A stretch of DNA of 37,501 nt from assembly GCA_017860085.1 (NCBI GenBank), contig JAFNAJ010000001.1, positions 1 through 37,501 of the forward strand, given 5' to 3'. The notes beneath the pieces were generated by a model. That model did no database searches. It worked only from the letters and a program-made list of their open reading frames with translations, and was not told the origin of the DNA. Every line of letters begins with the position of its first letter. Within the stretch, counting starts at the first letter, position 1. The position numbers and the translations under genes were made by a program. The stretch comes from Acidobacteriota bacterium. GTDB lineage: Bacteria; Acidobacteriota; Vicinamibacteria; Vicinamibacterales; JAFNAJ01. Shown piece after piece: positions 1 to 15,100 of the stretch.

Positions 1-559
1 CCTCCGCGCGCTGCTGGCTCTCGGCGGCGAAACGATCCTGATCGTCGCGACCCACGCCGTAGCGGGCGCCAATCTCCTCAGCCGTCAGCCCCATGTGACA
101 CGTCTTGATCGCGCACGTCAATCCATCGTCGATCATCGTGTCGACGACCTGAGCGTGCCCCATTCGGTATCCCCACCGGGCCCCCTTGAGCAGGAAAGGC
201 GCGTTGCTCATCGACTCCGTGCCACCTGCGACGACGAGTTCGCAGTCGCCCGTGGCGATGCTCTTGGCCGCATGAACGACGGCCTGCAGGCCCGAGCCGC
301 AGACGCGGTTGACGGTCTCGGCCGGCACCTCCACCGGCACGCCCGCCTTGAGCGCGGCCTGCCTGGCGACGTTCATGCCGACGCCGGCCTGCAGGACGCA
401 CCCCATGATGACGTCCCCCACACCATCCGGGGTGGCATGCGCCCGATTCAGGGCTTCCCTGATCACGATCGCTCCCAGGTCGGCCGCGGACAGGTCCTTC
501 AGCGTGCCCCCGAACGACCCGATCGGCGTTCGGCACGCGCTCACGAGGTAGGCATCCAT
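1..559 (-). CDS. Acetyl-CoA acetyltransferase (thiolase), truncated by window start
   Basis: Manual minus-strand translation MDAYLVSACRTPIGSFGGTLKDLSAADLGAIVIREAL...ETVNRVCGSGLQAVVHAAKSIATGDCELVVAGGTESMSNAPF with thiolase active-site Cys motif NRVCGSGLQA. Absent from the ORF track because it runs off the window edge. Confidence 0.95.
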   Translation of the reverse strand, partial: MDAYLVSACRTPIGSFGGTLKDLSAADLGAIVIREALNRAHATPDGVGDVIMGCVLQAGVGMNVARQAALKAGVPVEVPAETVNRVCGSGLQAVVHAAKSIATGDCELVVAGGTESMSNAPFLLKGARWGYRMGHAQVVDTMIDDGLTCAIKTCHMGLTAEEIGARYGVGRDDQDRFAAESQQRAE

Positions 560-560
560 C

Positions 561-2516
561 TCAACGCTCCAGTTGGGGCAGGTTCTTGAACAGTTCGAGG
601 GCCTCCGGGTTGGCCAGCGCTTCGCGATTGCGTACCGGTCGGCCGTGGACGACGTCGCGCACGGCCAGTTCCACGATCTTGCCACTCTTCGTACGCGGGA
701 TGTCGGCGACGGCCACGATTCGAGCCGGGACGTGTCGGGGCGTGGTGCTCTCTCTCACCTTCTGCCGGATCCGCGCCTCGAGTGCCGCGTCGAGCGCCAT
801 TCCCTCGCGCAGGCGCACGAACAGCACGACCCGCTGGTCGCCGTCCCAGTCCTGTCCCACGACGAGGCTCTCCACCACCTCGTCGAGCTGCTCCACCTGA
901 CGGTAGATCTCGGCAGTGCCGATGCGAACCCCGCCTGGGTTGAGCGTGGCGTCCGAACGCCCGTGGATGACCAGCCCGTCATGCTCGGTGATCTCCGCCC
1001 AGTCGCCGTGACACCACGCGCCAGCGAAGCGCTCGAAGTATGCCGCGCGGTACTTGCGACCGTCGCCATCGTTCCAGAAACTCAGCGGCATCGACGGAAA
1101 CGGTCGCTTGCACACGAGCTCGCCGGTCTGTTGGCGCACGGGTTCGCCGCGCTCATCGAAGACGTCCACGTCCATGCCGAGCCCGCAAGCCTGAATCTCG
1201 CCACGCCAGACGGGCCCGATCGGATTCCCGAGAACGAAGCAGCTGACGATGTCGGTGCCGCCCGAGATCGACGCGAGGTGCACGTCGGCCCTGATCCGCC
1301 TGTAGACGAAGTCGAAGCTCTCCGGGGCCAGCGGCGACCCCGTCGACGTGATCGTCCGCACGGAGTCGAGCCGATGCGTGTCGATCGGCGCGAGGCCGGC
1401 CTTCTCGACCGACGCGATGAACTTCGCCGAGGTGCCGAACAGGGTCATGCGCGTCTCCTCGGCCAGATCGAACAGGACGTTGCCGTTCGGATGGAATGGC
1501 GACCCGTCGTAGAGCACGATCGTCGCGTCGGAGGCGAGGGCCGATGCGAGCCAGTTCCACATCATCCACCCACAGGTCGTGAAGTAGAAGACGCGATCGC
1601 CCGGATGGATGTCGCAGTGCAGTTGGTGCTCCTTGAGGTGCTGGAGGAGCGTGCCACCGGCGCCGTGCAGGATGCACTTCGGTGCCCCGGTGGTGCCGGA
1701 CGAGTAGAGGATGTAGAGCGGCTGATCGAACGGCCACGGCTCGAACTCGATCGGTCGCGGCCGGAAGGTGTTCAGAAGGGTCGACCATCCCACTGCGCCA
1801 CGAAGCCCACGGATGTCCGCGCTCTCGGCGACGTACGGGACGACAATCGTGCGCTCGACGGTCGGGAGCCCTGCCAGGATGGGCCCCAGTCGCGAGAGGC
1901 AATCGTGTGCCTTGCCGCCGTAGAAGTACCCGTCTGCAGCGAGGAGCACCTTGGGCGAGATCTGCCCGAAGCGGTCCAGCACGCCCCGCACGCCGAAGTC
2001 CGGTGAGCACGACGACCAGATCGCGCCGAGGGTTGCGGTGGCCAGCATCCCGATCACGGCCGCCGGCAGGTTCGGCAGATACGCGGCGACGCGATCGCCC
2101 GGGCCCACCCCGGCGTCACGCAGGGCCTGCGCCAGACGCGAAACGTCGTCGTGAAGCGCTGCTCGCGTGAGCGTCTGCCTGACGCGGCCCTCGCCCGAGA
2201 ACACGATGGCCTCACGCTCGTCGGGTCGACCCAGGAGGTTCTCGGCGAAGTTCAGGCGGGCGGTGGGAAAGAACCGCGCCCCCGGCATCAGGTGCGGATC
2301 CGAGACCGGTGGACCCTCCCCACGCGATCCGACGACACCGCAGGCGTCCCACACCTCGGCCCAGAAACGACCGAGGTCGTCGACCGACCACGCGTGCAGA
2401 TCGCGGTAGGTGGGCAGCTCACGGCCTGCCGCGATCGAGGCTCGACGCAGGAACGCCGAGAGGTGCGCCTGCGCGACCCGATCGTCCGAGGGAACCCACA
2501 GCGGCTCTCGAACCAT
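561..2516 (-). CDS. Acetoacetyl-CoA synthetase (acetoacetate-CoA ligase)
   Basis: Adenylate-forming motif [21 protein letters not shown]; long N-terminal region [16 protein letters not shown] typical of acetoacetate-CoA ligases. Start [12 protein letters not shown] at 2516, preceded by TATAAT. Confidence 0.9.
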
Positions 2517-2526
2517 CTCGCGCAGA

Positions 2527-3441
2527 TTATAAGTCCCGGGTCGACAGCCGAGCGCGCCAGGCGGCCGCGGCCGCAAAGGCCCTCATCACGGCATCGCGAT
2601 CACCGAGCCCGCGGCGCATGGCGGACAGCTCCTCGATGAGGCGGTCGATGGCCGCTTCCAGGTGGTCGGCATTCGTGGCGCAGATATCCGCCCAGATGTC
2701 GCCCGGGCTCGACGCGAGCCGCGTCGTGTCGAGGAGGCCGCCCGCGGCCAGGTCCAGTCCCTCGTCTCCAACGGCCTCCCCGACCACGCGCATCAGCGCG
2801 CTGGCCGTCAGCTGCGGCAGGTGACTGACGAACGCGAGCAATGCGTCGTGGCGCGCCGGGTCCATGGGCATGGGTCGCGCCCCAACGGCCTCGACGAACG
2901 CCGAGACTTTCGAGAGGACCTCGCCTGGGAGGTCACCGCTCGGGGTGAGGATCCAGCGCCGACCGACGAACAGTCCGGCGGCCGCCGAGCCCAGTCCGCC
3001 GCGAGCGGCGCCAGTGAGGGGATGACCGCCGACAAACGACAACCGCCCCGGCAAGTCCGCCGCGGCGCGAACCACCGCGCGCTTGGTACTGCTGACGTCG
3101 GTGACGACAGCGTCTCCCGCAACGACGTCTGGCAGGTCGCGCAGGATGGAGATGGTCTGCAGGACGGGGGCCGAGAGGACGACCAAGTCGGCCTCGGCCA
3201 GCATGCCGAGGTCGTCGGCCCCGACGTCGATGGCGTGGCGGACCATCGCCTGCTCGAGCACCTCCTTCCGGTCCACCCCGATCACCAGCGTCGTCGGCCA
3301 GACCTCCCGGGCGGCAAGCGCGATCGACCCACCGATGAGCCCCAGACCGACCACCCCGATCCGCGCAAAGGGCGGTGGGCCCTCAGCGGGCGTCAGCGTG
3401 GTGTCGGCCGCACGGACCGGCAGACGTCGCGCGGCGGCCAC
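2527..3441 (-). CDS. tyrA: Prephenate dehydrogenase
   Basis: N-terminal Rossmann motif [22 protein letters not shown] and GGHPLTG motif. Probable GTG start at 3441; the upstream ORF extension overlaps the DAHP synthase gene. Confidence 0.88.
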
Positions 3442-3442
3442 G

Positions 3443-4492
3443 CTACCGGCCCCAGCCGCGCCTCGCCACCGGTTCCACGCAGATGCTGCGCCCAATGGCC
3501 GGGGCGATGATCCGAAGCTCGGCCATCAGCCGCTCGAACTGCGACGGGAACATCGACTGCGCGCCATCGCTCAGCGCGTGGTCGGGATCGCAGTGCACCT
3601 CGATGAGCAGGCCGTCGGCGCCGGCAGCGACGGCGGCCCGCGCCATGGGCGCGACCTTGTCACGACGGCCCGTGCCGTGGCTCGGATCGACGAACACGGG
3701 CAAGTGGCTCAGTTTCTTGACGACAGGAATGGCCGAGATGTCGAGGGTGTTGCGCGTGTAGCTCTCGAACGTACGGATCCCCCGCTCGCACAGGATCACG
3801 TGCATGTTGCCGCCGGCCAGCACGTACTCCGACGACAGCAACCACTCCTCGATGGTTGCCGAGATCCCCCGCTTGAGCAGGATGGGCTTGCGCGTCTTGC
3901 CGAGCTCGCGCAACAGCGTGAAGTTCTGCATGTTCCGCGCGCCCACCTGCAGGACGTCGGCGTATTGCACCACCACCTCGATCTGGCTCGCATCCATCAC
4001 CTCGGTGACCAGCGGCAACCCGTGTTGATCGGCGGCTGCGCGCAGCAGCCGCAGGCCCTCCTCGCCGAGCCCCTGGAAGCTGTAGGGCGAACTGCGGGGC
4101 TTGAAGGCCCCCCCGCGCAAGACCTTGGCGCCGGCCCGCTTGACGGCCGCCGCCGTGGCCTGCACCTGCTGCTCGCTCTCAGCCGAACAAGGGCCTGCCA
4201 TCACGATGACCTCGTCGCCGCCAATCCGCACGTCGCCGCACAGGAAGACCGTGTCGTCCTGCTTGAAGGTCCGGCTGGCCAGCTTGAACGGCTCGGTGAT
4301 GCGCACGACCTCCTGGACGCCCTCGAGCAGTTCGACCAGCCGAGGATCCCCCATCCGGGCGCCACCCACTGCCCCGATCACCGTTCGGGTCGCCCCAGTC
4401 GACCGGTGCACGTCGTAGCCCATCGTCACGAGCTGGGCCACGACCCGTTCGATCTGCTCCTCGGTCGCCCGTTCCTCCATCACGACCACCAT
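3443..4492 (-). CDS. aroF: 3-deoxy-7-phosphoheptulonate synthase, type I-beta, with N-terminal ferredoxin-like regulatory domain
   Basis: MVVVMEERATEEQIERVV...TRTVIGAVG then MAGPCSAESEQQ, KVLRGGAFKPRSSPYSFQGLGEEGL, DPSHGTGRRD. GTG at 4507 is an alternative start overlapping the chorismate mutase stop. Confidence 0.93.
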   Translation of the reverse strand: MVVVMEERATEEQIERVVAQLVTMGYDVHRSTGATRTVIGAVGGARMGDPRLVELLEGVQEVVRITEPFKLASRTFKQDDTVFLCGDVRIGGDEVIVMAGPCSAESEQQVQATAAAVKRAGAKVLRGGAFKPRSSPYSFQGLGEEGLRLLRAAADQHGLPLVTEVMDASQIEVVVQYADVLQVGARNMQNFTLLRELGKTRKPILLKRGISATIEEWLLSSEYVLAGGNMHVILCERGIRTFESYTRNTLDISAIPVVKKLSHLPVFVDPSHGTGRRDKVAPMARAAVAAGADGLLIEVHCDPDHALSDGAQSMFPSQFERLMAELRIIAPAIGRSICVEPVARRGWGR

Positions 4493-4503
4493 GCCATCCT
4501 CCG

Positions 4504-4815
4504 TCACGCGTCCGCGCGCGTTCGGTCACCCTCGGGACCGTGCGTCGCTTGCTCGAGCGCTTCGCGCTCCAGGCGTCTTGCTTCGTCGATGATCCGCTCG
4601 AAGAGCCTCGTCATCGCCTGCCCGTCCAGCGGCCCTTTGTTCACGCCCCGCACGTGGGCCAGCACCTGCTGCTCACGGTCTGGCTGGTAGACGGCGAGGC
4701 CCAGCGCGTGCTTCAGTCGCCCAATCGCCAGCGCGCACTCGGCTCTCGCGCTGAGCAGCGCCACCAGCTCCTCGTCGAGGTCGTCGATCCGTCGACGCAG
4801 GTCGTCGATGGTCAC
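4504..4815 (-). CDS. Monofunctional chorismate mutase, AroQ class
   Basis: [55 protein letters not shown]; typical AroQ helix 1. GTG start with GTGA overlap to the trpA stop. Confidence 0.88.
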   Translation of the reverse strand: MTIDDLRRRIDDLDEELVALLSARAECALAIGRLKHALGLAVYQPDREQQVLAHVRGVNKGPLDGQAMTRLFERIIDEARRLEREALEQATHGPEGDRTRADA

Positions 4816-5645
4816 CGCGGGCCGTCCTGTTCGCCGCCGAGCGGCCTCGGAGCGCACCCCCGACGAAGCGCGCGCACGAAGGCCTCGACGTGCTCGACCA
4901 ACGCGTCCGACTGCCCCCAGCGCCCGATCACGTCCACGAGGGCACTGCCAACCACGGCGGCGTCGGCCCACTGGGCCACGTCGGCCACGTGCTCAGGGGT
5001 CGAGAGCCCAAACCCGACGGCCACCGGCAGCGCCGTCTCGCGCTTGATGCGCGCCACCAGGTCGCGCGCTCCGTCGGCCAGGGACGCGCGCGCGCCGGTC
5101 ACACCCAGGCGAGAGATCGCGTAGAGGAACCCGCGCCCGAGGCGACCCGCCTCACGAATGCGGGCCGGCGTGGTAGTCGGACTCAGCAGGAAGATGGTAT
5201 CAAGCCCCACCCCTTCGAGCGCAGCGCGCAGGCCGCCGGCCTCCTCGACGGGCAGATCGAGGACGAGCACGCCATCGACGCCTGCCTCCGAGGCTCTGGC
5301 CGCGAAGCGGTCCAGCCCCACCCTGACGACGGGGTTCGCGTACGTGAAGAGCACGATCGGGGCGCGGATGGCCGCTCGCTCGCGAGCGACCATCTCGAGC
5401 GTGGCCGCGAGCGTGGTGCCCGACGCGAGAGCCCGTTCCGAGGCTCGCTGGATCACGGGACCGTCGGCGAGCGGGTCCGAGAACGGCACGCCTATCTCGA
5501 GGATGTCGGCCCCAGCGCCGTCGAGTGCCCCGAGGACTCGTGCCGACCGCTCGAGATCTGGATCGCCGGCCGTGACGTAGGTCACCAACCCGGCACGTCG
5601 TTCGGCGCCCAGCCGCTCGAACGTCTCTCGAATTCGCGACCTCAC
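4812..5645 (-). CDS. trpA: Tryptophan synthase alpha subunit
   Basis: [69 protein letters not shown] start, GTGA overlap with trpB stop. Confidence 0.97.
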
Positions 5646-6898
5646 AACGACGGCTCCTGCCCCGCCGCGTCCGGGCGCAGTTGCCGTTCAACTGCCTGCA
5701 CGTCCTTGTCGCCCCGGCCCGAGAGGTTGACCAGCACGAGCTCAGGGGGTGACGACTCGCGCGCCAGTTCCCTGAGGTGCGCAATCCCGTGGGCGGACTC
5801 GAGCGCTGGGACGATGCCCTCGGTGCGGGCAAGCCACTGAAACGCCTCGAGCGCCTGTGCGTCGCTCACGTGTGCATACTCGGCGCGGCCCGACGATCGC
5901 AGCCACGCGTGCTCGGGGCCGATGGCCGCGTAGTCGAGCCCTGCCGACACCGAGTGGGTGGCGCCGATGTTGCCCGCGTCGTCTTGCAGCACGAAAGTGC
6001 GCGTGCCCTGAAGGATCCCCGGGCTGCCGCCCGCGAACCGCGCGGCATGACGGCCGGCCTCGATCGCCTCCCCTCCTGCCTCGACGCCAATCAACCGGAC
6101 GGCCGAGTCATCGATGAACGCGTCGAAGAGGCCCAGCGCGTTGCTGCCACCGCCCACGCAGGCCACCACCGCGTCAGGCAACCGCCCGTACTGTGCCAGG
6201 CACTGCGCGCGGGCCTCCTGCCCAATCACGGACTGGAACTCCCGGACCATGAGGGGGTAGGGGTGCGGCCCGAGCGCCGAGCCGAGCAGGTAGTGTGTGT
6301 CGTGCACGTTCGCGACCCAGTCGCGCATGGCCTCGTTGATCGCGTCCTTCAGGGTCCGACTTCCCGCATCGACGCCGTGCACGCGTGCGCCGAGCAGACG
6401 CATGCGGAACACGTTCAGGGCCTGACGGGCCATGTCGTCGACGCCCATGTACACGTCGCACGCCAGTCCGAGCAGTGCGCACACCGTGGCCGTGGCGACC
6501 CCGTGCTGGCCGGCGCCGGTCTCGGCCACGACGCGACGCTTCCCCATGCGCACGGCGAGCAGGCCCTGGCCGAGCGCATTGTTGATCTTGTGCGCGCCGG
6601 TGTGCGCCAGGTCCTCACGCTTCAGCAGCACCCTTGACGCGCCGAGCGCACTGGCCAGGCGCCGTGCCTCGTGGAGGGGTGTCGGGCGGCCGACGTAGTG
6701 GCGCAAGAGCGACGTGAACTGTTGCTCGAACGCCGGGTCGCTCCGGGCGTCGAGATAGGCCGCTTCGAGCTCGGCAATGGGCGCCACGAGCGTCTCGGGC
6801 ACGAAGCGGCCGCCGAACTCACCAAAGTAGCCGCGCGCGTCCGGATCGCGTCGCCCGAAGGCGCCGCGCACGGTGACGGGTGGTGCCTGGTCTTCCAT
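5642..6898 (-). CDS. trpB: Tryptophan synthase beta subunit
   Basis: [75 protein letters not shown] at 6898 ([12 protein letters not shown]) preceded by GAGG. Confidence 0.97.
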
Positions 6899-6903
6899 CG
6901 ACC

Positions 6904-7545
6904 TCAACCGTTCTCCGTCCTGGGCCCAGCCGATGCGACCCTGACGGCCTCGAAGAATGCCCGCATCCGGCCCGCGTCCTTGACACCTGGCGACGCTTCC
7001 ACGCCCGACGCCACGTCGAGCGCCCACGGCTGCACCGACCGGATGGCCTCGGCAACGTTTCCCGCCGTGAGGCCACCCGCCAGGATGCTCCTCCGTCGCC
7101 GCGCCAGCCGGGCGGCCAGCGCCCAGTCCGCGACGCGACCAGTTCCACCCCGGCGCGCGCGATCGTCGGTATCGACGAGGAGCGTGACCTCGCCGGGCCA
7201 CACCTCGGCTACGACGTCGACCGTCGTGGGCGTCAGCCGCACGGCCTTGATCACCGGTCGTGGCAATCTCGCGGCTAGCGATGGGCCTTCGTCGCCGTGC
7301 AGTTGCACGGCCGCGAGCGGAACGTGCTCGCACCATCGGCGCACCTCGTCGGCGGGCGCGTTGACGAACACGCCGACCAGTACGACGAACGGCGGCAACG
7401 CCCGCGCAATGTCCCTGGCCTGGTCGAGCGCCACGACGCGCGGGCTGCCCCTCCACGTCACCACGCCGATGGCGCTGGCCCCGAGATCGACCGCCATTTC
7501 GGCATCGGCAGGCCGCGTGACGCCACACACCTTCACGCGGGTCAC
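6904..7545 (-). CDS. trpF: Phosphoribosylanthranilate isomerase
   Basis: [70 protein letters not shown] start overlapping the trpC stop. Confidence 0.94.
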
Positions 7546-8402
7546 GGCGGCACTCCCTGGTCGGCTCTTGTCGAGCCTGACGCGAGGCACCGTCGACCGG
7601 CCCCGAGCAAGTCCGCCAACGCGGCCCCCGGGTCGGGCGACGCCATGAAATGCTCGCCGATCAGGAACGCGTCGTATCCCGCCAAGGCCAACCCTGCGAC
7701 CACTGAAGGGTCCTTGAGACCGCTCTCCGCCACGGCCACCACATGGCCAGGCAACCGTGCAGCCAGGTCTCGTGAGGTCGAGGCCGACACTTCGAGCGTT
7801 CGCAGATTCCTGTTGTTCACGCCGACGATGTCGGCCCCCGCATCCACGGCACGGGCGACCTCGGTCGCGTCGTGCACCTCGACGACGGCCGCAAGCCCGA
7901 GGCCAGAGGCCTCCCCGAGCAGCGCCGCGAGTTGGTGCTGCTCGAGCGCCGCGACGATCAGCAGCACAGCGTCGGCGCCGTGTGCGACGGCCTCGAACAA
8001 CTGGTAGCGGTCGACGATGAAGTCCTTGCGGAGCACCGGAGTGGTGACGACCCGTCGGACTGCGGAGAGGTGATCCAGCGCGCCATCGAAAAAACACGGC
8101 TCGGTCAAGACCGACACGGCCACCGCGCCGGCGGCTTGGTACGCCGAGGCAATGCGGGGCGGATCGTACGCCGCCCGCAACACTCCACGAGACGGCGAAC
8201 GCCGCTTGCACTCGGCAATCACGCGGACATGGGGCCCAGTGCCGAGCGCCGATCTGAAGGCGGACCCTCTCGGCACGTGTCCCACGCACAGCCGCTCCAG
8301 CTCCGCCAGCGGAACCCGCGCCTCTCGCGCCTCGACGGTGCGTCGCGTCGAAGCGACAATCGCCTCGAGGAGATCGCCACCAGATCCCGGGGGCACCGTC
8401 AT
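7542..8402 (-). CDS. trpC: Indole-3-glycerol phosphate synthase
   Basis: [71 protein letters not shown] at 8402 overlaps the trpD stop (ATGA). Confidence 0.96.
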
Positions 8403-9418
8403 GCGTCCTCTCCCCGCGAACACGACGCCATCCGCGCGAGCGTCGAGGCCGACCGCCCCGAATCAATCGCGTCGATCGCCTGCTCCATGCCCTCGCGCAC
8501 CGTCGCGACGACGCCCGCAATGAGGAGCGCCGCACCCGCGTTCAGCACGACGATGTCTCGGGCTGGCCCTCCCTGCCCCGAGAGCACGTTGCGCGTCAGC
8601 GTGGCATTGTCGTCGGCAGTACCGCCCGTTAGCGCGTCGAGCGTGGTCTTTCTCAGGCCGAAGTCCGCCGGATGGACATAGAAGGTGTGCACCAGACCGG
8701 CGCGGCACTCGGAGACCTTCGTGTAGCCGCACGTGGACAGCTCGTCGAGACCGTCGGCGCCGTGCACCACCCACGCCCGATGGGACCCCAGCCTCGCGAG
8801 CGCGGTCGCCACCAACTCGGTCATCTCCGGCCGCGGCACACCGACGAGTTGTCGTCGCGCGCCGGCGGGGTTGGTCAGCGGCCCGAGGAGGTTGAAGGCC
8901 GTCCGCAACCCCAGGTCTCGCCGGGCCTGGCCGGCATGTCGCATCGACGGGTGGAACGTCGGCGCGAACAGGAACGCGATCCCGGCATCGGTGAGGCAGC
9001 GTTCCACCCTGTCGGGTGGCGCGGTCACATCGACGCCCAGCGCCTCGAACACGTCCGCGCTGCCACAGCGGCTCGATACCGAGCGGTTTCCGTGCTTGGC
9101 CACCAGCACGCCGCACGAGGCGACGACGATGGCCACCACCGACGAGATGTTGAACGTCCCTGCGCCGTCGCCACCCGTGCCGCACGTGTCGAACGCCTCC
9201 GGATACTCCCGCGACAGCCGCACCGCGTGCGCGCGCATGGTCGAGGCAAATCCCACCACCTCCGCGGGACGCTCGCCCTTGAGCCTGAGGCCGACGAGCA
9301 GCCCTCCGATCTGCGCCTGGGTTGCCCGCCCCGCCATGACCTCGGCCATCGCGCTGGCGGCCTCGTCGGTCGTCAGGTCGCGCTGGAGTGCGAGCTTCTC
9401 GAGAAGACCGGCGAACAT
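8399..9418 (-). CDS. trpD: Anthranilate phosphoribosyltransferase
   Basis: DTCGTGGDGAGTFNIS, VAKHGNRSVSSRCGSADVFEALG, FNLLGPLTNPAGARRQLVGV, VHGADGLDELS. Confidence 0.97.
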   Translation of the reverse strand: MFAGLLEKLALQRDLTTDEAASAMAEVMAGRATQAQIGGLLVGLRLKGERPAEVVGFASTMRAHAVRLSREYPEAFDTCGTGGDGAGTFNISSVVAIVVASCGVLVAKHGNRSVSSRCGSADVFEALGVDVTAPPDRVERCLTDAGIAFLFAPTFHPSMRHAGQARRDLGLRTAFNLLGPLTNPAGARRQLVGVPRPEMTELVATALARLGSHRAWVVHGADGLDELSTCGYTKVSECRAGLVHTFYVHPADFGLRKTTLDALTGGTADDNATLTRNVLSGQGGPARDIVVLNAGAALLIAGVVATVREGMEQAIDAIDSGRSASTLARMASCSRGEDA

Positions 9419-9984
9419 CACAGCTCCATGAAGTTCCGCAGCATCCGGCGTCCCTCGACCGTCATGATCGACTCCGGGTGGAACTGCACGCCGTGCACCG
9501 GCCACGCCCGGTGCCTCAACGCCATCACCGTCCCATCGTCCGCCGCGCGCGCGGCCACCTCCAGGGCGGCCGGCCACCCGTCGTCGGACACGACCAGCGA
9601 GTGATAGCGTGCGGCCTCGAAGGATCCGGACAGCCCACGGAATACCCCGCGGCCGTCGTGTTCGACGGTCGACGTCTTGCCGTGCATCGGCCGAGGTGCC
9701 CTCACAACCAGACCACCAAAGGCGTGACCGATGGCCTGGTGCCCCAGGCAGACGCCCAGGATCGGCACCTCGGCTCCGAAGCGCCGAACCAGCTCGACCG
9801 AAACCCCGGCATCTTCGGGACGGCCCGGCCCCGGTGAGATGACAATCCGCGTGGGGCGAAGCCCGGCGATGTCGTCCAAGGTCACCGCGTCGTTTCGACG
9901 CACCACCACCTCGGCCCCCAGTTCGCCCAGGTACTGGGCGAGATTGAAGGTGAACGAGTCGTAGTTGTCGAGCAGCAGGACCAT
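9418..9984 (-). CDS. trpG: Anthranilate synthase component II (glutamine amidotransferase)
   Basis: MVLLLDNYDSFTFNLAQYLGELG, VISPGPGRPEDAG, ILGVCLGHQAIGHAFGG, VHGVQFHPESIMT. Confidence 0.97.
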   Translation of the reverse strand: MVLLLDNYDSFTFNLAQYLGELGAEVVVRRNDAVTLDDIAGLRPTRIVISPGPGRPEDAGVSVELVRRFGAEVPILGVCLGHQAIGHAFGGLVVRAPRPMHGKTSTVEHDGRGVFRGLSGSFEAARYHSLVVSDDGWPAALEVAARAADDGTVMALRHRAWPVHGVQFHPESIMTVEGRRMLRNFMEL

Positions 9985-9988
9985 GGGT

Positions 9989-11479
9989 CTAGAGGCGCTC
10001 CGTCTGGGCCAGCTCGATGGCCTTCAGCAGCGCGCGCGCCTTGTCGCACGACTCCTCGAACTCCGACGCCGGATTCGAATCGGCCACGATCCCCGCACCA
10101 GCCTGCACCAACGCCCTCCCCTCCCGCATGACCACCGTGCGGATGGCGATGCAACAGTCGAGATTGCCGGCGAAATCGAGATAGCCAACCGCCCCCGCAT
10201 AGAGGCCCCTCGGCCCCGGCTCCTGCTCTGCGATGATCTCCATCGCACGAATCTTCGGCGCGCCCGACACCGTGCCAGCCGGGAAGCACGCGACCAGGGC
10301 GTCCAGTCGATCCCGGTCCTCGTCGAGGCGCCCCTCCACCCGCGACACCAGGTGCATCACGTGCGAATAGCGCTCGAGCGCCATGAACACCGGGACGCGC
10401 ACGGTTCCGGGTTCGCACACGCGTCCCAGGTCGTTCCGACCGAGGTCGACGAGCATGACGTGCTCGGCTCGCTCCTTCTCGTCACGCTTCAATTCCTCGC
10501 CCAGCCGCAGGTCTTCCTCGTCCGACCGGCCACGGGGACGAGTGCCCGCAATGGGGTGCGTCTCGACGCGTCGGCCTTCGACGCGCACGAGCATCTCGGG
10601 CGATGACCCAACGATGGCCAACTTGCCCATGCGGACGAAGTACATGTAGGGCGACGGGTTGACGTGACGCAGGGCACGATAGACCGCAAACGGGTCAGCC
10701 GTCACCTCCGCTTCGAACCGCTGCGACAAGACGACCTGGTACACGTCGCCCCGAGCGATGAGCTCCTGCGCGGCTCGCACCGACGCTTCGAAGCGCTCGC
10801 GTGTCGTGTTCGAGTGCACCTCCGGCGCGGCAGCGGGCCCGGCCGGTGCGCGCGACAGGGCCCGATCGAGTTCGCGCTCCAGAAACGCAATCCGCGCGCA
10901 GGCGAAGTGGTACAGCGTTTCGAGATCCTCGTTCGGCGTGATGCGCGCGTTGGCGATGGCCAGGATCCGGTGCTTGACGTGATCGAACGCGAGCACCGTG
11001 TCGAAGAGCATGAACCCGGCCTCGGGACCCTCTGCCGCCTGGGCGCTGCCGTACCGCTCCCAGACCGGCCTCAGGGCCGGCTCGAACCACGGCGAGGCGT
11101 CGTACCCAAAGAAGCCCACGGCTCCGCCTGTGAAGCGCGGCAGTTCGGGAACGAAGGGCGACCGGAACTCCGACATCAGCCGGCGGAGGGCGTCGACAAA
11201 CGGCTCGGCCAACTCGGTGGTCTCTCCACTTCGTTCGAGGATGGTCCGCCCCTGCGACGCACGAAGGACGAGAAACGGGTCCTTGCCGAGAAACGAGTAT
11301 CGGGCAACCTGCTCGCCTCCTTCCACGCTCTCGAGCAGGAAGGCGTAGTCGGAGAGTTCCGCGATCTTGAGGAAGGCGGACACCGGCGTCAGCAGGTCGG
11401 CCAGGATCTCCTTGTAGACCGGGACGAACGTGCCCCGGCGGGCCAACTCCACGAACTCTTCGAAGCTGGTCTGTCTCAT
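9989..11479 (-). CDS. trpE: Anthranilate synthase component I
   Basis: MRQTSFEEFVELARRGTFVPVYKEI; LLESVEGGEQVARYSFLG; HPIAGTRPRG, FPAGTVSGAPKIRAMEII, GAGIVADSNPASEFEE. ATG at 11479 overlaps the aroDE stop (ATGA). Confidence 0.96.
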   Translation of the reverse strand: MRQTSFEEFVELARRGTFVPVYKEILADLLTPVSAFLKIAELSDYAFLLESVEGGEQVARYSFLGKDPFLVLRASQGRTILERSGETTELAEPFVDALRRLMSEFRSPFVPELPRFTGGAVGFFGYDASPWFEPALRPVWERYGSAQAAEGPEAGFMLFDTVLAFDHVKHRILAIANARITPNEDLETLYHFACARIAFLERELDRALSRAPAGPAAAPEVHSNTTRERFEASVRAAQELIARGDVYQVVLSQRFEAEVTADPFAVYRALRHVNPSPYMYFVRMGKLAIVGSSPEMLVRVEGRRVETHPIAGTRPRGRSDEEDLRLGEELKRDEKERAEHVMLVDLGRNDLGRVCEPGTVRVPVFMALERYSHVMHLVSRVEGRLDEDRDRLDALVACFPAGTVSGAPKIRAMEIIAEQEPGPRGLYAGAVGYLDFAGNLDCCIAIRTVVMREGRALVQAGAGIVADSNPASEFEESCDKARALLKAIELAQTERL

Positions 11480-12966
11480 GGTGCGTACCGCTCCTCGGGC
11501 CGGCCGTTCCTCTCGCCGTGCATGGCCGCCAGTCGCCGGGCTGCGGCCTCGCGCATGACCTCGGTCGGCGCCTGTTGTCCCGTCCACCACTCGAACTGCC
11601 GCGCCCCCTGCGCGACCAACATGTCGAGCCCGCCGATGGTGGTGCACCCGCGTCGCCGCGCCTCGGCGAGCAACGGCGTCTCCGCGGGGTGGTACGCGAG
11701 GTCGTAGACCAGGCGTCCATCGAGCGCCGTGCCTTCGACCGGGCTCGACACGCCATCGGGGCCGCTTTCGGCCGGTATGGCGTTGACCAGCAGGTCCCAC
11801 GTCCCAGGCGGGACGGGCAGAGGTCCCCACCCCGCACCGAAGGGTTCGGCCACTAGGCGGGCGCGTGTCGCGTCGCGGGCCCTCACGGTGACACGGGCTT
11901 CTCGATCGGTGAGGCCCGCCACGACGGCGCGCGCCGCACCTCCGGCTCCCACCACCGTTGCGCGGAGGCCCCCGAGCTCCAAGTCGGCCAAGGGTGCGAG
12001 GAATCCTTCGAGGTCGGTATTCGTGGACTCCCATCCCGCCAGGCTCTGAGACCACCGCAGCGTGTTCGCTGCATCGAGCCGCAACACGACGCTGTCTCGC
12101 GACACCGATGCGCGGGCTGCCGCCAGCTTGTGCGGCGCCGTCACGCTGCAGCCCTCCAGCCCCAGGACGGTTCGCGACGCGTCCACGTCCTCAAACGCCT
12201 CCGTTTCCAAAGGCAGGTAGACGGCGTCGACCTTCGTAACCGCAAATGCGGCGTTGTGCATCGCGGGCGACACAGAACGCCTGACGGATCGCCCGACCAC
12301 CCCATACACCCTCGTGCCGGGGCCCACGCTGCGAATTCGAAACTCGTCGAGGAGTCGTTCGAGCGAAAGCTGCCCGGCTGCCACGTCGCCGGCGTACGTC
12401 CACACCGACCCAAACCTCGACGGAAGGACTCGGGTCGCCACACCGGCCTCCCCCATGCCGACCAGCACGAGGCGCCCGCTGGCCCCGTGTTGGCGGCCGC
12501 ACGCGGCCAAGATCGGCAAGTCTGCCAGCCGCCCAACCAGCACGGCCATCTTGGCTCGCGCCGCGCCAGTGGCAAGCATCGCCCTCACACGTTCGGTCAG
12601 GTCGGAGGGAACGCCCCCGGACTCGTGCCACGACAGCACGATGCGGTCGGGGCACCGCGTCAGCAGGTCGTCTCGGAACGGCGCTCCCCATTCGACATCG
12701 ACGTACTCGGCACCAGCCTCGAGCGCGGCCTCCAGGATGCGGCGTCGCTCGTCCTCCCCGCCCTCGAAGCGCCCTCCATCCCAGCGAGGACGGCACGTAA
12801 CCACGGCCGGGCGCCTGCGACCTGCGAGCGCCGCGCCCGGGTCGGGCTCTTCGAGGCCATCGAGCCGCAGTTCGATCAGGTCGGCGCGGGCCGCCGCCTC
12901 GCGGTCGCGGCGCAGCTCGCCGTGACTGCCGGCCATCACGGTTGCACAGATTCGACAGTGGGTCAT
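11476..12966 (-). CDS. aroDE: Bifunctional type I 3-dehydroquinate dehydratase / shikimate dehydrogenase fusion
   Basis: N-terminal half: ICATVMAGSHGELRRD, RADLIELRLDGL, IVLSWHES, ARAKMAVLVGRL (candidate Schiff-base Lys). C-terminal half: GRSVRRSVSPAMHNAAF, SVTAPHKLAA, ESTNTDLEGFL, VVGAGGAARAVV. Start ATG 12966; the ORF-track TTG at 12999 lies inside the terminator hairpin. Confidence 0.9.
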   Translation of the reverse strand: MTHCRICATVMAGSHGELRRDREAAARADLIELRLDGLEEPDPGAALAGRRRPAVVTCRPRWDGGRFEGGEDERRRILEAALEAGAEYVDVEWGAPFRDDLLTRCPDRIVLSWHESGGVPSDLTERVRAMLATGAARAKMAVLVGRLADLPILAACGRQHGASGRLVLVGMGEAGVATRVLPSRFGSVWTYAGDVAAGQLSLERLLDEFRIRSVGPGTRVYGVVGRSVRRSVSPAMHNAAFAVTKVDAVYLPLETEAFEDVDASRTVLGLEGCSVTAPHKLAAARASVSRDSVVLRLDAANTLRWSQSLAGWESTNTDLEGFLAPLADLELGGLRATVVGAGGAARAVVAGLTDREARVTVRARDATRARLVAEPFGAGWGPLPVPPGTWDLLVNAIPAESGPDGVSSPVEGTALDGRLVYDLAYHPAETPLLAEARRRGCTTIGGLDMLVAQGARQFEWWTGQQAPTEVMREAAARRLAAMHGERNGRPEERYAP

Positions 12967-12980
12967 CCTGAACCCGCGAA

Positions 12981-13024
12981 CAGCAAAAAGCCCCTTCAAC
13001 CGGATCGGCTGAAGGGGCTTGCTG
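12981..13024 (-). terminator. Intrinsic terminator of the trp leader (attenuator, segments 3 and 4)
   Basis: Minus strand CAGC-AAGCCCCTTCA-gccgatccggt-TGAAGGGGCTT-TTT-GCTG: 11-bp perfect GC-rich stem, 11-nt loop, T5 run at 12985-12989, located between the leader ORF and aroDE. Confidence 0.92.
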
Positions 13025-13046
13025 AGTCCGCGCCGTGCTGTTCACG

Positions 13047-13142
13047 CTAGGCCCGCGCAGCCTCCCCTTCGGTGCTGATGCCGCGCCACCACGCGCACGA
13101 CGTCGCGCGGATCACACGGCCGGGAAACTCGAAGGCAAACAT
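13047..13142 (-). CDS. trpL: trp operon leader peptide, 31 aa: MFAFEFPGRVIRATSCAWWRGISTEGEAARA
   Basis: Manual translation from ATG 13142 to TAG 13047; tandem TGG TGG codons at 13086-13091; lies between a consensus promoter and an intrinsic terminator, upstream of aroDE-trp. Confidence 0.85.
   Translation of the reverse strand: MFAFEFPGRVIRATSCAWWRGISTEGEAARA
13058..13070 (-). promoter_or_regulatory. Antiterminator segment 2 of the trp attenuator
   Basis: Minus GAAGGGGAGGCTG inside the leader ORF can pair with segment 3 CAGCAAGCCCCTTC (13011-13024): 7 bp (GAAGGGG/CCCCTTC) plus 4 bp (GCTG/CAGC) across a small internal loop. It mimics the terminator 3' arm GAAGGGGCTTTTTGCTG. Confidence 0.8.
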
Positions 13143-13150
13143 CGCGTCGG

Positions 13151-13179
13151 ACGATAACAGAGCCCTTGGCCCCCGTCAA
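13151..13179 (-). promoter_or_regulatory. Sigma70-type promoter of the trp leader
   Basis: Minus TTGACG (13179-13174), 17-nt spacer, TATCGT (13156-13151); leader ATG at 13142. Confidence 0.75.
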
Positions 13180-13208
13180 CTCGTGTGACCGGCGTGCGAC
13201 CGGCGACC

Positions 13209-13237
13209 TTGACCACCTTCGATCCGGTTGCTATAAC
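13209..13237 (+). promoter_or_regulatory. Sigma70-type promoter of the S55-like gene
   Basis: TTGACC (13209-13214), 17-nt spacer, TATAAC (13232-13237). Confidence 0.75.
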
Positions 13238-13255
13238 CGAAACATAGAAGGTAGC

Positions 13256-15100
13256 GTGACAGCACGAAATCCCATGCGATTCACGGTGGCCGCAGCCTGC
13301 GCGCTCCTCCTGCTCGGCGGCACATGCACAGACTCGCAGACGGCCTTGATGCCCGTCGACGAGGTCAGGGCCGGCATGACCGGGACGGGATACACCGTCT
13401 TCAAGGGCGAGGCTCCTGAGCCATTCACCGTCCATATTCTCGGCACGCTCCACAACGTCGTTGGCCCCCGTCGGACGATGATTCTGGCGCGACTCGAGGG
13501 CGGTCCGCTCGCCACGTCGGGCGTGATCGCGGGGATGAGCGGGAGCCCCGTCTACGTGGACGGCCGGCTCGTGGGCGCCATCGCGTACTCCCTCGGCGCG
13601 TTTCCCAGGGAGCCGATTGCGGGCATCACACCGATCGCCGAAATGATCGAGGCCGCTCGCCTGTCGACGCCGCGGTCGGCGTCGCAGCGCGCGTTGCCGA
13701 CGCGCCTCGACGCCCCCGACGCGCTCGCGTCAGCGGTGCGTGCGCTCCTGCCCGGCGCCTCGCCGTTTGCGGAGCGACTGGCGGACGTCCGCGTCGCCGG
13801 CGGCGACGTCGGGCCGTACGCCTTGAGCCTCACGCCCATCGCGACGCCGGTCTCCCTGGCAGGGTTCAGCGGTGACGCGCGAGCGGTGCTGACCAGCGTG
13901 CTCGAGCAGGGGGGGTTCGTCGCCGTCGCCGGCGGCAGCGCCTCGCCGTCCCGAGCACCGTCAGGTGACCGTGCTCTCGCGCCGGGCGACGCCGTTGGTG
14001 TGTCGCTCGTGTCGGGCGACCTGTCGCTGGCGGCCACGGGCACCGTGACCCACGTGGACGGTGACCGCGTCTACGCCTTCGGCCATCCCTTTCTCAATCT
14101 CGGTCCCATCTCGTTCCCCATGACGCGGGCCGAAGTTCACGCGGTCGTCCCCAGCCTGATGTCGTCGATGAAGCTCTCGAGCGTCGGCGCCCCGATCGGC
14201 ACGGTGCGTCAGGATCGGGCCTCGACCATCGCGGGAACGCTCGGCGCCCCTCCGCCGATGGTGCCCGTGCGGATCACGCTCGAGAGCCAGGGGGCGCCGT
14301 CGCGCCGGTTCGCCTTCGAGGTCGCCAACGACCAGGTGTTCACCCCGCTCCTCGCCTTCGCCACGGTCCTTTCCGTCTTCCAGTCGTACGAACGGGAGAT
14401 GGGGTCGGCCACGTTCGCCGTGTCGGGATCAGCCCGTGTCAAGGGGCTTGGCGCAGTGTCGCTCGAGAACGTCTTCGCGGGCGATGCTGCCTCGGCGAAT
14501 GCCGCGGCCTCGGTGGCAGCTCCCCTGACCTCTCTCCTGCGCAACGAGCTGGCCGACGTCGAGATCGAGGGGATCGACCTGGTGGTGCAGTCGACCGAGC
14601 AGACCCGCACGGCGACGATCGAGCGCGTGTGGCTCGACGGCGGCGATGTCCGAGCAGGTCGAACGCTCGTTCTCAAGATCGCCACGCGATCGTACCGTGG
14701 AGAGGAGACGGTCCGTTCACTGCCCGTCCCGATTCCCGAGCACGTGAGGGGCCCGCTGACGCTGCTCGTCGCTGACGCGAGCGCGCTCCGCGAGTGGGAG
14801 CAGCACGAGATCCGACCGGCGAGCGACGTGCAGAACATCGGGCAACTGATCCGGCAGTTGAACGAAACCCGCCGCAACAACCGCCTGTACGTGCGGCTCG
14901 CCAGCCAGTCGGCTGGTGCCGTGGTCGGCGGCGAGGCGATGCCCGCGTTGCCCCCGTCCGTGCTCACGGTGCTCGAAGCCGGCGGGACGAGTGGCAGCTT
15001 CACCCCCATCAGGAGCACCATCGTCGGCGAGTGGGACCTGCCGACCCCGGATGTGATCAAGGGTTCCCGTTCGCTCAGGCTTAACGTGGAGCCCCGTTGA
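13256..15100 (+). CDS. Secreted SpoIVB/S55 peptidase-like domain protein
   Basis: Signal peptide MRFTVAAACALLLLGGTC; VIAGMSGSPVYVDGRLVGAIAYSLG and GDRVYAFGHPFLNLGPISFPMT. GTG 13256 is preceded by AGAAGG; ATG 13274 is an alternative start. Confidence 0.75.
   Translation: MTARNPMRFTVAAACALLLLGGTCTDSQTALMPVDEVRAGMTGTGYTVFKGEAPEPFTVHILGTLHNVVGPRRTMILARLEGGPLATSGVIAGMSGSPVYVDGRLVGAIAYSLGAFPREPIAGITPIAEMIEAARLSTPRSASQRALPTRLDAPDALASAVRALLPGASPFAERLADVRVAGGDVGPYALSLTPIATPVSLAGFSGDARAVLTSVLEQGGFVAVAGGSASPSRAPSGDRALAPGDAVGVSLVSGDLSLAATGTVTHVDGDRVYAFGHPFLNLGPISFPMTRAEVHAVVPSLMSSMKLSSVGAPIGTVRQDRASTIAGTLGAPPPMVPVRITLESQGAPSRRFAFEVANDQVFTPLLAFATVLSVFQSYEREMGSATFAVSGSARVKGLGAVSLENVFAGDAASANAAASVAAPLTSLLRNELADVEIEGIDLVVQSTEQTRTATIERVWLDGGDVRAGRTLVLKIATRSYRGEETVRSLPVPIPEHVRGPLTLLVADASALREWEQHEIRPASDVQNIGQLIRQLNETRRNNRLYVRLASQSAGAVVGGEAMPALPPSVLTVLEAGGTSGSFTPIRSTIVGEWDLPTPDVIKGSRSLRLNVEPR

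Follow-up and report, generated by a model that had tools for sequence, protein, structure and literature searches.

A probable tryptophan attenuator ahead of an aroDE-trp-tyrA operon in the acidobacterial order Vicinamibacterales

The leader and the operon behind it

The window, a 37,501-nucleotide stretch of contig JAFNAJ010000001.1 from an Acidobacteriota bacterium, carries a short leader followed by a chain of aromatic amino acid genes on its minus strand (Table 1). The initial annotation had listed a promoter, a 31-codon open reading frame (ORF) with tandem TGG codons, segments 2 to 4, a T5 run and an aroDE start at 12966, and each of these was found on the minus strand exactly where it had been placed.

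Table 1. Leader elements and operon genes in the window, listed in the direction of transcription
Feature	Coordinates	Strand	Detail or basis
Sigma-70-type promoter TTGACG-N17-TATCGT	13151..13179	minus	TTGACG 13179-13174, 17 nt, TATCGT 13156-13151
Leader ORF MFAFEFPGRVIRATSCAWWRGISTEGEAARA	13047..13142	minus	ATG 13142, TAG 13049-13047, 31 codons
Regulatory codons TGG TGG (tandem Trp)	13086..13091	minus	read directly
Segment 2 GAAGGGGAGGCTG, 5' arm of antiterminator, within leader ORF	13058..13070	minus	
Segment 3 CAGCAAGCCCCTTCA, 3' arm of antiterminator and 5' arm of terminator	13010..13024	minus	
Segment 4 TGAAGGGGCTTTTTGCTG with T5 run, 3' arm of intrinsic terminator	12981..12998	minus	
aroDE, bifunctional 3-dehydroquinate dehydratase/shikimate dehydrogenase, first structural gene	11476..12966	minus	Pfam, NCBIfam
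trpE	9989..11479	minus	Pfam, NCBIfam
trpG	9418..9984	minus	Pfam, NCBIfam
trpD, start GTG 9421 or ATG 9418	8399..9421	minus	Pfam, NCBIfam
trpC	7542..8402	minus	Pfam, NCBIfam
trpF	6904..7545	minus	assigned by N-terminal sequence and operon position, not by profile
trpB	5642..6898	minus	Pfam, NCBIfam
trpA	4812..5645	minus	Pfam, NCBIfam
aroQ-type (type II) chorismate mutase	4504..4815	minus	Pfam, NCBIfam
aroF, DAHP synthase with ferredoxin-like domain	3443..4507	minus	Pfam, NCBIfam
tyrA, prephenate dehydrogenase	2527..3441	minus	Pfam, NCBIfam

The leader ORF starts 8 nt past the -10 element without a Shine-Dalgarno sequence, 15 nt separate its second TGG codon from segment 2, and the T5 run of segment 4 occupies 12989-12985. 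The stem formed by segments 2 and 3 has a core of 7 bp, with four further pairs and a small internal loop. For the full 180-nt leader, the predicted folding energy is -95.6 kcal/mol (z = -4.1 against shuffles). The terminator formed by segments 3 and 4 is the only strong one in 12.9 kb and the promoter the only promoter-like site there: scanning of positions 400-13300 gave a hairpin of 15 pairs at 3:4 against 5 in the three other terminator-like sites, and a consensus scan of the same stretch returned the promoter (score 9/12) as its sole sigma-70-like site (shuffles mean 0.6). The attenuator is single-copy in its own genome, with the second-best independent match at 19.9 bits versus 82.9. On the plus strand, a divergent gene (13079-15097) encodes a SpoIVB/S55-type peptidase domain, and its open frame extends into the attenuator region.

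Downstream, aroDE joins a type I dehydroquinase domain to a shikimate dehydrogenase domain. Start and stop codons overlap at aroDE/trpE, trpG/trpD, trpD/trpC, trpC/trpF, trpB/trpA, trpA/aroQ and aroQ/aroF, and a start for tyrA is possible right behind the aroF stop codon. Because these overlaps run along much of the chain, aroDE to tyrA are likely to be co-transcribed as one RNA, and the gene content bears out the earlier proposal that shikimate, Trp and Tyr branch genes, including DAHP synthase, lie behind the leader. Beyond tyrA follow an AMP-binding enzyme and then a thiolase (Pfam, NCBIfam). Homologues of aroDE, trpE, trpG, trpD, trpC, trpF, trpB and trpA are present in all 20 long loci from relatives, in the same order wherever a position could be assigned (for trpB and trpF, after correction of the query). 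The same search of these 20 loci found DAHP synthase next in 19, chorismate mutase in 16 and tyrA, with the query used, in none.

Conservation across Vicinamibacterales

The best named AroDE matches are from Acidobacteriota, several of them titled Vicinamibacterales or Vicinamibacteraceae. Since searching with the leader DNA gave only short matches in distant relatives, chiefly to the terminator, the comparison was based on protein-anchored regions upstream of aroDE. AroDE is present in 153 of the 162 genomes of the order, mostly metagenome-assembled, and upstream DNA was taken from 144.

The attenuator layout is found upstream of aroDE in nearly all of the ~140 order genomes. Of the 141 genomes with enough sequence, 106 have a short ORF with WW ahead of aroDE, compared with 3 on the antisense strand and ~8 in shuffles (4-14, ten shuffles); WWW occurs in 62/141 leaders, against none antisense and about 0.1 in shuffles (one match in ten). 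Most leaders lacking WW have W-x-W clusters instead, such as WRWYW, WYWYW, WFWF and WHYWF, and all 137 scored leaders contain 2-6 Trp codons. Typical leader sequences are YASYWWWYRTATEGAAGV and AWWYWGTSEEASALA, in which the EG, EE or GE residues correspond to the codons of segment 2. Terminators below -15 kcal/mol are found in 133/137 relatives, and TTGAC-N17/18-TAnnnT lies upstream of 122/137 leaders versus 3 antisense. The Trp codons, the mimicry between segments 2 and 4 and the terminator, whose conservation in relatives had been named as a check, are kept in 15 family-level groups of the order.

When 50 leaders were used to build a covariance model, it detected 30 members of the order at 63-105 bits in a sample of the phylum, and gave no match above 42 bits outside the order in that sample. 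Weaker matches outside the order, apart from the separate attenuators described below, look like chance hairpins on inspection. No convincing Trp leader was found before aroDE in Desulfobulbales, Blastocatellia or archaea. At gathering scores no Rfam family, trp leader and T-box included, matches the window leader; relaxing E to 10 added nothing but three sRNA matches at chance level, and the leader peptide is without a match in NCBIfam.

The 5' end of the leader is also short in relatives, whose start codons were picked by rule: of the 122 leaders with a promoter, 54 have the start codon within 12 nt of the -10 element and 77 within 18 nt. A Shine-Dalgarno-like 4-mer precedes just 3 of these 122, and 8/137 of all leaders. 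By itself this absence says little, because even the genes in these loci show little of the motif (33% of those with an ATG start versus 22% at control positions), but the leaders are lower still. With a gap of 8 nt in the window, the predicted 5' end of the transcript falls on the ATG or beside it, and the leader ORF may be leaderless or nearly so.

Competing pairings of segment 3

Segment 3 can pair with either segment 2 or segment 4, and the spacing of segment 2 both from the Trp codons and from the stop codon matches a ribosome footprint. In relatives, segment 2 lies a median of 20 nt after the first Trp codon; measured from its own start, the median distance is 28 nt to the end of the stop codon and 55 nt to segment 3.

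The columns of the 2:3 core are paired in 95-100% of genomes. At its variable positions, wherever segment 3 has C for T, segment 2 has G (17/17, 8/8 and 14/14), and several families have an altered stem with matched changes in segments 2 and 3 (CCTCTCCAG/CTGGAGAGG, CCTCTCCGG/CCGGAGAGG and CGCCCCTTCGGC/GCCGAGGGGGCG). Segments from the same genome form 8.26 Watson-Crick pairs per 10, compared with 7.66 +/- 0.056 after permutation and 7.99 +/- 0.044 after permutation within families. The alignment and the choice of hairpin were partly model-guided, yet picking segment 2 by consensus alone, without its own segment 3, led to the same result (8.20 versus 7.72 permuted and 8.00 within-family). Scored on a MAFFT alignment of 50 leaders, covariation is 0.226 for 2:3 (0.178 +/- 0.010 in shuffles) and 0.215 for 3:4 (0.157 +/- 0.010); for both pairings none of 500 shuffles reached the score, which is also above that of every slid register. 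The predicted 2:3 and 3:4 stems are mutually exclusive and are both supported by covariation.

Modelled with a footprint edge of 14 nt, folding of the RNA left free by the ribosome gives 2:3 in 129/133 leaders when the ribosome is stalled and 3:4 in 132/133 when it is at the stop codon. These alternative structures had been proposed for the window from its sequence, and they recur in nearly all relatives. The stalled-ribosome fold of the window leader has -29.8 kcal/mol, and its copy of the attenuator, given its stem, its two Trp codons and its lack of Tyr, is among the weaker in the order.

We conclude that the window element is, with very high probability, a Trp-sensing, ribosome-mediated transcription attenuator of the classical kind, as the initial annotation had read it from the competition between 2:3 and 3:4. 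RNA polymerase would start at ~13143, and a ribosome would begin translating the leader ORF right at the 5' end of the RNA or no more than a few bases from it. When charged tRNA-Trp is scarce, the ribosome would stall on TGG-TGG, leaving segment 2, just past its footprint, to pair with segment 3 and block the terminator, so that the aroDE-trpEGDCFBA-aroQ-aroF-tyrA transcript would be completed. With ample Trp, the ribosome would instead reach the stop codon and cover segment 2, the 3:4 terminator would form and transcription would end near 12985. An untranslated leader would presumably be terminated too, through a 1:2 hairpin alongside 3:4. Sequence and comparison establish the individual elements, how they are ordered and spaced, the two pairings with their covariation, and the operon; from these we infer that transcription terminates in the cell, that the ribosome stalls, that the leader responds to Trp and how far the transcript extends.

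Sensed amino acids, alternatives and known systems

The cluster in the window reads CAWWRG, with two Trp codons and no Tyr, and this leader would sense Trp only. The initial annotation was right about the attenuator but missed both the Tyr codons in the clusters of relatives and the lack of a Shine-Dalgarno sequence. Tyr lies inside the Trp cluster in 126/136 leaders, ~15-fold enriched over the rest of the leader and encoded by both TAT and TAC, and typical clusters are YWWWY, WWYW and WYWYW, with WFWFIYF in one family. One genome with a YWWWY leader (G006, upstream region L133) is a single contig of 7,480,314 bases. The leader may therefore sense Trp and Tyr jointly throughout the order, and Phe too in some families, the window copy having drifted to Trp alone. 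Such joint sensing would fit an operon with chorismate mutase, DAHP synthase and prephenate dehydrogenase, because it makes precursors of all three amino acids. However, Phe is not enriched overall near the cluster (0.97x), the Tyr codon may be retained for reasons of RNA sequence, and the window leader itself has WWRG without Tyr; we regard the balance as even.

The released leader RNA or peptide might in addition act in trans, for which the reported action of peTrpL of Sinorhizobium meliloti (PMC7298713) offers a precedent. Since the length and sequence of the acidobacterial peptide vary freely outside the Trp cluster and segment 2, a conserved peptide function across the order is improbable, and we consider action in trans unlikely. 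That the hairpin is merely a fixed partial terminator without regulation, or marks where another transcript ends, is extremely improbable: 3:4 on its own is indeed a strong intrinsic terminator, but the conserved Trp clusters, the spacing of segment 2 and the 2:3 covariation would be left unexplained, and, because the upstream S55/SpoIVB-like peptidase gene is divergent, no transcript would arrive from that side to end there.

Besides the attenuator before aroDE, other leaders of similar appearance occur in other acidobacterial families. Three of these (L297, L298 and L300) have the Trp-rich sequences ASWWWYRR, GWWWCAG and AWWWCIC and a GCCCTCCGG terminator, and their leader ORF carries a mimic of its 3' arm. 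A trpB-like gene follows L297 and L298, and the gene at L300 has a similar start; this type is a candidate for a separate Trp attenuator of trpB-like genes. At L299 and L309, leaders with MTTSIRYAWWWYASLREVATD and ...PRGWWWRTAHAEGGSPRS are followed by a terminator and then by trpE, whose products are 45-48% identical to the window TrpE, making them candidate attenuators directly ahead of trpE. In one acidobacterial genus (L301-L305), an ORF stretch such as VLVLLVLVLILVTQGAN-stop, a segment 2 mimic and a CCCCCAG terminator precede ilvE and an acetolactate synthase gene, and this leader is likely a branched-chain amino acid attenuator. Outside the order, L315 has a short leader, MARPVPFTAHGWWNEL, and a strong terminator ahead of an aroDE-like gene (31% identity).

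Taken together, a broader reading can be put forward tentatively, at somewhat less than an even chance: an order-wide Trp and Tyr attenuator with a leaderless or near-leaderless ORF would gate a complete shikimate-Trp-Tyr operon, DAHP synthase included, in one decision, while other acidobacterial families would have separate attenuators for Trp, before trpE and a trpB-like gene, and for branched-chain amino acids, before ilvE-ilvB.

The acidobacterial leader has the same parts, order and 2:3 versus 3:4 logic as trpL of Escherichia coli, the Yanofsky type, in which a promoter and a short ORF with tandem Trp codons precede mutually exclusive 2:3 and 3:4 structures, a ribosome at the stop codon covers segment 2, and a U-tract terminator stands ahead of the trp operon. 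Unlike trpL, its ORF lacks a Shine-Dalgarno sequence, most relatives have Tyr in the cluster, no Rfam trp leader matches it, and the operon begins with aroDE and runs on to chorismate mutase, DAHP synthase and prephenate dehydrogenase. In Bacillus subtilis the Trp sensor is an RNA-binding protein, TRAP, whereas the predicted sensor of the acidobacterial operon is the translating ribosome. Both organisms combine common-pathway and Trp genes in one long operon, and the aro-trp supraoperon of B. subtilis is under RNA-level control (PMC1173090); predicted attenuators ahead of tyrA-containing supraoperons are discussed in the same work. In the high-GC genomes of Corynebacterium and Streptomyces, candidate classical trp attenuators with double or triple UGG and GC-rich terminators precede trp operons or trpS, and no conserved RNA structures are reported before phenylalanine or tyrosine operons (PMC1262725). 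These share the classical layout with tandem Trp codons, but the acidobacterial case concerns another phylum and another operon and has Tyr in the cluster.

A 2010 survey listed Proteobacteria and Actinobacteria as the known hosts of leader-peptide systems, to which it added a histidine leader in bacilli; to almost none of the acidobacterial attenuators that it predicted could a function be assigned (PMC2965389). In the openly accessible full-text literature, we found no specific report of a leader-peptide attenuator in Acidobacteriota. What sets the element apart from the classical type is the phylum, the gated operon, the Trp-Tyr cluster of the relatives and the probable short 5' end. This 5' end and the missing Shine-Dalgarno sequence are relevant to how translation without a leader can be coupled to transcription, and the Trp-Tyr cluster raises the question of whether a single attenuator combines the signals from two end products of one branched pathway. 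Acidobacteriota are a dominant soil phylum, and an order-wide case would allow aromatic amino acid control to be predicted in bacteria that are mostly uncultured.
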